From assembly GCA_024398135.1 (NCBI GenBank), contig CP073750.1:124001-188000 (forward strand): a stretch of DNA of 64,000 nucleotides. The letters run 5' to 3'. A program made the translations under genes and the position numbers. Positions 35,443 through 38,412 of this stretch are shown here, piece after piece. Below the pieces are notes generated by a model. That model was not told where the DNA came from. It saw nothing but the letters and a program-made list of their open reading frames with translations, and ran no database searches. Origin of the DNA: a bacterium SCSIO 12643. Its GTDB lineage: Bacteria > Bacteroidota > Bacteroidia > Flavobacteriales_G > Salibacteraceae. Every line of letters starts with the position of its first letter. The first letter of the stretch is position 1.

Positions 35443-36003
35443 TTAGGGAGTCTTGCTAATATCCTTATACTCCTTGCGTTTCCAAATCTCCGTATACGGA
35501 TAACCATCCATCGTCATTTTTACCTGTAGTGTATCCCCTTCTAAAGTAAATTCAGCAGAATACTTTTTATCTCCAGGCATGTAGATATTTCCATTGGAAT
35601 ATTTTCCATTTGCATATGTAATCCCATCTAAAAAATAATCCTCTTCGTTTCCCTGTGCTTCGTATTCTGAATTCCCATCATTGTAATAATGCATTTTTCC
35701 AATGTACTCGTCTTTATACTTTAGTATTTCATAGATCGCCATATAATAATCATTCTTTACTTCCCAGATTCCAATAATACTATCCCCCGGGCTAGTGCCT
35801 AAAATTGTTGATTTCACTTGCTCCGTTAGGCGCTCTTCCTCTGCATTTGTGGTATCCATAACTTCTTGATTTGATTCTATTTCTGTTTTTATCTCAGTGA
35901 TACTCTCTGCCACCAATTGTTCTTTATGCCTTTGCTTTTCTCCTTTACAAGCAGTAAATGAGAATATCAACAGACCTATTACGATAAAGATTTTTGTGTT
36001 CAT
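35443..36003 (-). CDS. DUF2147-like lipoprotein
   Basis: 186 residues. A lipoprotein signal ends FTAC with Cys19 as the lipidated residue. A linker rich in Glu and Thr (about 25-70) precedes a beta-rich domain with DSIIGIWEVKNDYYMAIYEI and DEYIGKMHYYNDG, the pattern of DUF2147, whose members are small envelope proteins of unknown function. It lies 53 bases downstream of the ABC-type membrane protein on the same strand, so it may belong to the radical-SAM cluster. Assignment to DUF2147 is by motif and is tentative. Confidence 0.65.
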   Translation of the reverse strand: MNTKIFIVIGLLIFSFTACKGEKQRHKEQLVAESITEIKTEIESNQEVMDTTNAEEERLTEQVKSTILGTSPGDSIIGIWEVKNDYYMAIYEILKYKDEYIGKMHYYNDGNSEYEAQGNEEDYFLDGITYANGKYSNGNIYMPGDKKYSAEFTLEGDTLQVKMTMDGYPYTEIWKRKEYKDISKTP

Positions 36004-36056
36004 ATTTTCCTTTTTATGATTTGAATTATTTGTAAAACTTGCTTAGATCAATGCAA

Positions 36057-36890
36057 TTAGGGTACGATGTTTTTAATACGCTTTGAAATTTCTGAAAGGC
36101 GCAACCAATGTTGATAATATAAAGGGAGGCTCACCACACTTTCAATGTATTGATAGACATACATTATGAGGGCAAATAAAGCGCCATATTGGACTCCTTC
36201 GCTCGCTGAAAAGTAAATGGTAATGATGAGTAAAATCATCATGATCAACCAACTAATCGAATAGTTTATGGTTTCGATATCAGACAGTTTTATATTCCAC
36301 CTCATCAACTTTAACAAATGAAATCGTAATCCTGATTGCTGGTTAGATCGAATGACATCAACCTGAGACTCCAGCTCATTATTAAATTTATGATTATAAT
36401 CCAGGGTCCGCCCCCCACTTAATACATAAATAAATAACACTACTGCTCCGGTTACCAAAGCACCAAGAAATGTATTCCAGCTCAAAAAAGCTAAAATCGT
36501 CATTACACCAATTAATCCTATACTGTGTTGAACAATCATGGGTAATTCATTTTCAGCAAACCGCACCATTTCAGCCAACATATTCAGGCGGGCAGTTTTT
36601 AAAGAGTGTTTTTCTTTTGGAATGAACTTTAACACGATCGTACTAATTCTGATATAAATCTTAGCATAAAATCGGGAATCAAAATACCTTCGAAATCCTC
36701 CCATAATAATCAGTAATCCGCCTAGCAGTCCCAGGTTCCATATTCCTGACAAGTTTTTATGGAGCATTCCATCAATAGCCTGACCAATGAAATATGGAAA
36801 TAAGACACCCAATAAAGCTTCAACAATGATGATTAAAATAGTAAACCCTAATCGCCATCGAAACTGATATATAATCTCTCTAATATCCAT
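36057..36890 (-). CDS. ABC exporter six-TM domain protein without ATPase
   Basis: 277 residues with six predicted membrane helices resembling the transmembrane domain of an ABC exporter (start IIYQFRWRLGFTILIIIVEALLGVLFPYFIGQAIDG). It ends at about the point where an ABC protein would enter its nucleotide-binding domain, and there is no Walker A or LSGGQ. Stand-alone six-TM proteins of this type are a known family in Bacteroidota. Its start overlaps the radical-SAM gene by 11 bases, so translation is coupled. Either an ATPase encoded elsewhere serves it, or it works without one. Confidence 0.85.
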   Translation of the reverse strand: MDIREIIYQFRWRLGFTILIIIVEALLGVLFPYFIGQAIDGMLHKNLSGIWNLGLLGGLLIIMGGFRRYFDSRFYAKIYIRISTIVLKFIPKEKHSLKTARLNMLAEMVRFAENELPMIVQHSIGLIGVMTILAFLSWNTFLGALVTGAVVLFIYVLSGGRTLDYNHKFNNELESQVDVIRSNQQSGLRFHLLKLMRWNIKLSDIETINYSISWLIMMILLIITIYFSASEGVQYGALFALIMYVYQYIESVVSLPLYYQHWLRLSEISKRIKNIVP

Positions 36891-38412
36891 ACAAGTAGTT
36901 TAAAACGAGTTCAGAATATAAAATGCTCCATAGGGATAAGACAATCCACAGAATGGTAATCACCCAAAACATGATAGGGTCTTCATCTCTGCTGTAACTA
37001 TCCATGAAAAAGGTATATCTGGTTTTAATCCCATGGAAACTCCAGAAGAGAAATAACGCGGCAAAATAGAAATTGAAATGTTCATACCATAAAGCCACAG
37101 GTAATAGCAGCAAAGCGATAAATGTTTTCCATTTCGTTTCTTTTTTACTTACTGTTTTAGAAATTGCAGATAATTCCGGTTGAGGTTCATCCTTTTTTTT
37201 TACTCCTTCTCTTTTTTCTCTATTCCACTTTTCTGAAGTCTGATAGACTTCCCAGGTCCCCATTTCCAATTCTAACGGACTCATTTTAGCGGGTTGAAAT
37301 ACCGCGTGCGAACCATCATATTTAGACCAGTCTTTCGTTAAAATACGCCCCTCCGTATCTAATTTATTAAAAGTCTCTGAACCCGGAAACGGGATCATTA
37401 AATGCGGATATACCACATCAATATCTATGTCCTTTATAAAATCTAAAGTTTGATCAAAAATTCGGTGGTCATGAGCATCAAATCCAAAAAGGAAATCTCC
37501 TACCACCTCAATTCCATAGCTTTTTACAATTTCGACATATTCTTTTATCTGATTGGGCTTCACAAACGTTTTTCCTTGTTCTTTTAACGCTTCTTCGGAT
37601 GGTGTTTCTATTCCAAACAATAAAGTCTTCACACCCGCCTCTTGTGCGGCTGCCAATAGATCTTTGTTCTTCGCAATCAAAACCGTGGTCTCCCCGTAAA
37701 AATTCATGTTTAAGGGAGCTAATGCTTTAAACAATTCCATGGCATATCTCTTATTCTGCGTCAGGTTATCAGAATGCAATTCAACCCATTCCACACCAAG
37801 CTTTTTCAGTTCTTTTAGTTCTGCAACAATATGTGGAATGGGACGTAAAGAAAATTTATCAAAGAATTGGTGGACCAAACAAAAATCACAATGCATTGGA
37901 CATCCTCTACTCACCACAACCGACCAGGTCCAATTGTATTCCGAAACCGAAATTATATCGGTCGGATACGGTTTCAATTCTGCCAAATCCAATTGAGACG
38001 TTCGTTTGTAGGACTTCTTTAAAGTATTGTGTGCGATATCTTTAAAAATATCTTCCCATAGCCCCTCAGATTCACCAAGAATCAAAGTATCTGCATTTTC
38101 AGCAGCTTCATCTTGAAAAAAGAATGTGTGTAATCCACCTAATATGGTCACCTTTCCCTTTTTACTAAAAGCTTCTGTGATTTCATAAGCTCTGTACGCA
38201 TCAGGCGTTGACATAAAAACAGCCACTACATCCGCATTTGAATCCAAATTGGTTTTCATACCAATGGTTTCATCGCACATCTCAATCTCTATACCCTGAG
38301 GCATGGCTGCAGCTGCGGAGAATATGTTTTGGGGCGGACCACCGGTTTCAGCTTTATACTCCGAATAAGAACTTCCGGCAGAGGCTTTAATCAAATATAT
38401 TTTCATGGTCAT
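36880..38412 (-). CDS. B12-binding radical SAM protein with membrane C-terminus
   Basis: 510 residues. Residues 1-130 form a cobalamin-binding-type Rossmann domain (DVVAVFMSTP, GGLHTFFFQDEAAENADTLILGESE). The radical SAM core carries SRGCPMHCDFCLV with Cys171, Cys175 and Cys178 for the 4Fe-4S cluster, and GIETPSEEALKEQGK further on. The B12 motif DxHxxG is not obvious. The C-terminal 75 residues or so contain three hydrophobic segments that tie it to the membrane. The family includes methyltransferases and lipid- or tetrapyrrole-modifying enzymes; the membrane end suggests a lipid substrate (inference). Starts at 38412 or 38406 are both possible. It heads the cluster with the ABC-TM protein. 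Confidence 0.85.
   Translation of the reverse strand: MTMKIYLIKASAGSSYSEYKAETGGPPQNIFSAAAAMPQGIEIEMCDETIGMKTNLDSNADVVAVFMSTPDAYRAYEITEAFSKKGKVTILGGLHTFFFQDEAAENADTLILGESEGLWEDIFKDIAHNTLKKSYKRTSQLDLAELKPYPTDIISVSEYNWTWSVVVSRGCPMHCDFCLVHQFFDKFSLRPIPHIVAELKELKKLGVEWVELHSDNLTQNKRYAMELFKALAPLNMNFYGETTVLIAKNKDLLAAAQEAGVKTLLFGIETPSEEALKEQGKTFVKPNQIKEYVEIVKSYGIEVVGDFLFGFDAHDHRIFDQTLDFIKDIDIDVVYPHLMIPFPGSETFNKLDTEGRILTKDWSKYDGSHAVFQPAKMSPLELEMGTWEVYQTSEKWNREKREGVKKKDEPQPELSAISKTVSKKETKWKTFIALLLLPVALWYEHFNFYFAALFLFWSFHGIKTRYTFFMDSYSRDEDPIMFWVITILWIVLSLWSILYSELVLNYLYGY

Follow-up and report, generated by a model that had tools for sequence, protein, structure and literature searches.

A conserved Bacteroidota gene cluster encoding a radical-SAM enzyme, an ABC-exporter-fold membrane protein without its own ATPase and a lipocalin-like lipoprotein, with a possible role in handling a lipophilic envelope molecule

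On the minus strand of the window, i.e., the whole 64,000-nucleotide stretch of DNA analyzed here, three consecutive open reading frames encode a radical-SAM protein (36880-38412), a six-transmembrane (six-TM) protein (36057-36890), and a lipoprotein (35443-36003). The first two genes share 11 bp (36880-36890, minus strand, ATGGATATTAG), where the end of a small membrane domain of the enzyme, named sm here, runs into the start of the six-TM gene. This overlap, already noticed in the sequence-only reading of the locus, is real and suggests that the two genes are translationally coupled.

Gene neighborhoods across Bacteroidota, which that reading had proposed as a check, show that the genes adjoin in other genomes as well. 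When genomes were scanned with the window's six-TM protein as the query, eight loci were returned. The radical-SAM, six-TM, and lipoprotein genes occur in the window order in L002 and L006 (Bacteroidales MAGs), L004 (a Bacteroidetes MAG), and L005 (Labilibaculum), with identities to the window of 74-76% for the radical-SAM protein, 58-64% for the six-TM protein, and 44-50% for the lipoprotein. L007 and L009 (Winogradskyella) and L008 (Saprospiraceae) are devoid of the radical-SAM part; its place is taken, with the same overlap, by a gene for only the small membrane protein, a homologue of the C-terminus of the radical-SAM protein. The order sm, six-TM, lipoprotein is therefore kept in eight loci (the window and seven other Bacteroidota), five of which contain the radical-SAM part, and the overlap is identical in length in all eight loci where the small membrane domain precedes the six-TM gene (the window, L002, and L004-L009). 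Because the trio recurs in L002, L004, L005, and L006, and because dN/dS is 0.06-0.12 for every computable pair, the cluster is not a chance arrangement.

Upstream, most of the seven related loci have a Crp/Fnr-type gene and a small barrel-like gene; downstream, every one of them has a gene for a VOC protein. The Crp/Fnr and VOC genes are members of the module in most genomes. The window cluster lacks the Crp, barrel, and VOC neighbors, and a search run without a positive control found no VOC relative in the window's genome. A compact variant is present on plasmid pAT1 of Aureibacter tunicatorum, which carries the Crp, radical-SAM-sm, lipoprotein, and VOC genes, with the six-TM gene absent at that place, and this group adjoins a DUF5777-YceI-cytochrome operon. 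As for the history of the cluster, its genes are absent from the same-genus genomes G001 and G002, so that transfer or loss is likely. A recent foreign island was considered on the basis of composition and dismissed, as the GC content of the cluster (36.8%, versus 37.5% for the window) gives no such signal.

The radical-SAM protein is 510 aa long, and its residues 1-400 (37213-38412, minus strand) form the radical-SAM part. It carries both marks of the superfamily, namely, a PF04055 match (61 bits, cut-off 29.5, E 2e-16) and a CxxxCxxC motif at residues 171-178 (C171-x3-C175-x2-C178), whose cysteines are invariant among 10 homologues. The N-terminal Rossmann-like region resembles that of B12-type radical-SAM enzymes, and TIGR04013 matches the N-terminal stretch at residues 49-208. 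The label "B12-radical-SAM" given earlier is right in its second half; because no B12-binding domain of Pfam matched the protein in a profile search, "B12" denotes family resemblance only. The nearest NCBIfam profiles are BchE, which is the best HMM relative, HpnJ, and TIGR04013, all far under their cut-offs, and the solved structures nearest by sequence are 9ccb and 6fd2. Several enzymes of the BchE, HpnJ, and HpnR type act on lipids or tetrapyrroles. The window enzyme has the radical-SAM core in common with these families, and an N-terminal domain of a similar general kind, but its scores (57-90 bits, against family cut-offs of 481-650) rule out membership in BchE or HpnJ. It also differs from them by its own conserved N-terminal motif, KASAGSxYSxYKAETGGPPQNIF, and by its sm partner. 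Radical-SAM matches were obtained in 26 of 60 relatives, mostly to other families. A plasmid of Citrobacter portucalensis (L141, NZ_CP134684.1) has four radical-SAM genes close together with genes for a GH3-type protein, an acetyltransferase, and a PAP2 phosphatase; it is likely an uncharacterized biosynthetic cluster that is only distantly akin to the window enzyme.

The membrane C-terminus that had been assigned to the enzyme does exist, but it turned out to be a separable small-protein family. The sm domain comprises residues 425-510 of the radical-SAM protein (36880-37140, minus strand), i.e., about 85 residues with three TM segments, and no Pfam model matches it. Stand-alone homologues are found at L007:7751-8011, L009:7751-8011, and L140:13705-13989. 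An HMM built from 17 copies gives 75-119 bits on all 17, which sets them apart from the other ORFs, and in three Flavobacteriaceae genomes it finds ORFs of 59-62 aa next to radical-SAM genes that lack the fusion, with E values of about 1e-8, while the best of 600 shuffled control sequences reached only 0.15. The domain is fused to the radical-SAM protein in six loci, encoded next to it in four, and alone before the six-TM gene in three; each of the 10 radical-SAM members examined has an sm partner, fused in six and adjacent in four. One of the adjacent cases is Vibrio sp. THAF191d, where the sm gene ends 14 bp before a radical-SAM gene of 62% identity. Further copies adjoin six-TM, fatty-acid-hydroxylase, and Rieske genes. 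As sm is fused to or lies beside enzyme genes and also adjoins six-TM genes, the natural inference is that it is a membrane anchor or adaptor common to the enzymes of one pathway. Two variants were also seen: at L121:5940-6776 an sm domain is fused to a domain of about 190 aa of unknown nature, directly upstream of a Rieske gene, and at L003:6744-6905 a 53-aa ORF with a weak sm score (E 0.0096) just precedes the six-TM gene and is possibly a shortened or decayed anchor.

The six-TM protein (36057-36890, minus strand) is 277 aa long and a clear member of PF13748 (ABC_membrane_3), with 129.5 bits against a cut-off of 27 over residues 4-228. This family is uncharacterized: it was listed without an experimental structure in a 2022 survey (PMC9408558), and in the open-access literature PF13748 or its names occur in four papers, seemingly none of them concerned with its function. 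Compared with solved structures, the profile of the six-TM protein retrieves the transmembrane domains (TMDs) of ABC exporters only (BmrA, E 8e-5). The AF2 model (pLDDT 82) has a predicted type IV ABC-exporter TMD fold, with a best Foldseek E of 5e-4 and Z scores of 15-20 over about 270 residues against P-gp, MRP, and SUR structures. The protein stops after TM6 and has no nucleotide-binding domain (NBD) of its own, and a simple Walker/signature pattern detected no ATPase-like ORF in 13 loci. The earlier description of an exporter fold without an ATPase is therefore borne out. In the alignment with BmrA, the ICL1 region is about 11 residues shorter and the ICL2 region about 15; in agreement, the model is predicted to lack coupling helices and to have turns of only 7 residues between TM2 and TM3 and 2 residues between TM4 and TM5. 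Charged or helix-breaking positions conserved throughout the family are E24, P32, R67, D71, E174, and R271. E24, in TM1, is Glu in 40 of 41 homologues and Asp in the remaining one, versus Thr in BmrA; several other glutamates are clade specific. The sequence-only reading had named a degraded exporter with a broken ATPase gene nearby as the finding that would overturn it. This candidate was rejected, as no ATPase ORF adjoins the gene by pattern in the loci scanned, the family is intact and under purifying selection, and the coupling-loop regions are shortened.

The closest precedent is SbmA/BacA (SLiPT, PF05992), which has a type IV exporter TMD fold and conserved acidic residues and has lost the NBD and the coupling helices; a glutamate ladder carries the protons, which shows that proton drive is possible for an exporter TMD that has neither ATPase nor coupling helices (PMC13316013). 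Membership of the six-TM protein in this family is ruled out by the scores, PF05992 giving no match at E 0.1. Unlike SbmA/BacA, the window protein has no TM0 and other gene partners, and the six-residue ladder of the former contrasts with a single clearly buried Glu conserved family-wide in the latter. Solo PF13748 genes are scattered over Bacteroidota in unrelated neighborhoods. The idea that the cluster is a regular part of every PF13748 gene was accordingly dropped, since the distant members have unrelated neighbors; the tie to the radical-SAM, sm, and lipoprotein genes is seen in this clade only. Close relatives directly adjoin fatty-acid hydroxylases in L107 and L108. Another stable context exists in L109-L112, where close relatives lie beside RND-type efflux genes, AraC regulators, and small exported proteins.

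The lipoprotein (35443-36003, minus strand) is 186 aa long and has a hydrophobic N-terminus and an invariant Cys19 after the signal peptide, in a slightly atypical lipobox, FTAC. It had been described as DUF2147-like. A putative lipoprotein does come next in the row, but its DUF2147 (PF09917) score of 22.5 bits, against a cut-off of 27, rules out membership, and the protein is modeled as a lipocalin-like calycin barrel rather than a clear DUF2147 member. The barrel is predicted at residues 72-182, approximately, with moderate confidence (pLDDT of about 62-89 per block of 10). Its best match is the HP1028 lipocalin 4inn (Foldseek E 1e-4, Z 10.7, rmsd 3.3, 109 residues), followed by FABP-like folds in Foldseek, and by de novo designed barrels and avidins at Z 8-10. 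The likeness to HP1028-type lipocalins and DUF2147 thus consists of the predicted barrel, the weak DUF2147 score, and a GxW-type start of the barrel; unlike these proteins, the window lipoprotein has a long helical or low-confidence linker behind its predicted lipid anchor.

In the genome G835, a putative Flavobacteriaceae, the genes of the cluster lie together with others in one 13-kb stretch (L117). This stretch encodes Crp, a DUF5777 barrel, a 131-aa protein, YceI, a CxxCH lipoprotein, a 382-aa protein (p382), a lipoprotein B, sm, and a putative barrel, and in addition the six-TM protein, a second sm, the lipoprotein, a PF04116 fatty-acid hydroxylase, a Rieske oxygenase, a PaaE-like reductase, and a radical-SAM protein 71% identical to that of the window. 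The window's own genome has a second locus (L119, G000:C1:4070000-4081000) with genes for Crp, DUF5777, YceI, cytochrome c, p382, lipoprotein B, sm, a fatty-acid hydroxylase, and a Rieske oxygenase. It lies about 200 kb from the window cluster if the chromosome is circular, and the two together make up most of L117. The hydroxylase of the linked locus, whose gene is outside the window, belongs to the PF04116 His-box family, as do OlsE-like and alkylglycerol monooxygenase-like fatty acid hydroxylases, some of which oxidize membrane lipids. By motif we take it to resemble alkylglycerol monooxygenase; its OlsE score is 69.5 against a cut-off of 475. The Rieske alpha subunit is paired with a PaaE/GbcB-like reductase.

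Among 76 genomes, p382 occurs in five of eight radical-SAM-positive genomes versus 4 of 68 others (Fisher P 3e-4). The Rieske gene accompanies the six-TM clade in 7 of 23 genomes, whereas of the 53 genomes without this clade only 1 has it (P 7e-4). These P values are indicative only, because this genome set was chosen and not random. The eight genomes of L002-L009 yielded no Rieske gene; therefore, the oxidation part can be separated from the core and is not obligatory. Several linked-locus genomes also encode, as a separate gene, a p382-cytochrome c fusion of about 480 aa (L175:7248-8705, at G000:C1:3.49 Mb; L115:2534-3976, adjoining a photolyase-like gene; and L177:3129-4562). In genome G013 p382 is split into two overlapping frames by a frameshift or a sequencing error (L178:6963-8209).

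Taken together, the gene set is probably involved in the synthesis or handling of an unusual fatty molecule of the cell envelope; the modeled lipocalin fold of the lipoprotein and the fatty-acid-hydroxylase and Rieske partners lend indirect support to a lipid or envelope role. The reading that we favor, tentatively and at somewhat less than even confidence, is that a Bacteroidota envelope module acts on a lipophilic substrate and that the cluster contributes its modification and transfer steps, with the six-TM protein transporting without an ATPase of its own. The sm domain would hold the radical-SAM enzyme at the inner membrane, where the latter would modify a membrane-embedded or amphipathic molecule. 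The six-TM protein, presumably a homodimer of exporter fold without ATPase or normal coupling loops, would move the product or a precursor across or within the inner membrane; the energy would come from elsewhere than its own ATPase, plausibly from the proton gradient via the buried glutamate of TM1, but this single residue falls far short of the ladder of SbmA. The lipocalin-like lipoprotein may then take up the moved molecule in the periplasm. Many genomes would add to this pathway an oxygen-dependent oxidation of lipid type, by the fatty-acid-hydroxylase family and the Rieske oxygenase with its reductase, and YceI, the lipocalin-like lipoprotein B, cytochrome c, and the DUF5777 barrel would serve as periplasmic carriers; the linked Crp/Fnr-type gene may regulate the module. 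Several observations weigh against this reading: the Aureibacter locus has radical-SAM-sm, the lipoprotein, and VOC but no six-TM gene, the radical-SAM part is missing from three loci that do have the six-TM gene, the Rieske gene was not detected in the genomes of L002-L009, and the window is without the Crp, barrel, and VOC neighbors seen elsewhere, with no VOC relative found in its genome either.

The same genes could instead form an isoprenoid-quinone or redox module. The substrate of the radical-SAM and Rieske/hydroxylase enzymes would then be a quinone-like electron carrier, which would be carried by YceI and the lipocalin-like lipoproteins and coupled to respiration by the small cytochrome c, and the six-TM protein would be a flippase or a structural component. 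Quinones and tetrapyrroles are among the known targets of radical-SAM enzymes, and BchE as the best HMM relative, together with the YceI, CxxCH lipoprotein, and Crp/Fnr-type genes of the linked locus, would fit. We regard this as unlikely, given that the core lacks an adjacent YceI/cytochrome locus in L002-L009 and that the likeness to BchE, besides being far under the family cut-off, is common to all B12-type relatives. The neighbors allow yet another view, i.e., uptake of or resistance to an amphipathic natural product or peptide, with the six-TM protein importing the compound by proton drive, as SbmA/BacA does, and with its processing or inactivation by the radical-SAM and VOC proteins. VOC proteins are often resistance proteins, six-TM relatives lie beside RND efflux genes in L109-L112, and SbmA itself is a precedent for a proton-driven exporter TMD without ATPase (PMC13316013). 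This is more doubtful still, as the PF05992 model fails to match, no peptide-processing genes were noticed in the loci, and the lipocalin fold and the fatty-acid hydroxylase point to lipids.

Other alternatives concern the six-TM protein alone. It might be a nontransporting membrane scaffold or sensor that gathers the sm-anchored enzymes, an improbable role that would agree with the position of sm next to both the six-TM gene and the enzyme genes, and with genomes where the enzyme has no adjacent six-TM gene, but less so with the residues conserved family-wide within the exporter fold, from E24 to R271, which resemble a transporter core. Split ABC exporters exist, and the window's genome presumably holds stand-alone ABC ATPases, one of which, encoded elsewhere, could energize the six-TM protein. 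The residues missing from ICL1 and ICL2 relative to BmrA, the model devoid of coupling helices, the lack of an ATPase-like ORF by pattern in the 13 loci, and the solo PF13748 genes in unrelated neighborhoods make such a partnership the least probable of the explanations weighed here.

Each of the proteins belongs to or resembles a known superfamily, and it is their combination for which no description was found: the open-access literature yielded no paper on this set of genes or on DUF5777, which does not prove that none exists. Going beyond the favored reading, PF13748 could be a second class of ABC-exporter-fold secondary transporters, independent of SbmA, of which this clade moves an envelope lipid modified by the radical-SAM enzyme, the enzymes sharing the sm anchor; this wider proposal is speculative, and rather unlikely as a whole, though not negligible. 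If the model is right, sm may be used as a tag that points to membrane-acting radical-SAM, Rieske, or hydroxylase enzymes of one pathway, and Aureibacter tunicatorum, through pAT1, offers a named strain with a compact version of the module. The cluster would then provide a genetic handle on an uncharacterized family of ATPase-less ABC-fold proteins and on a new envelope molecule of the Bacteroidota.
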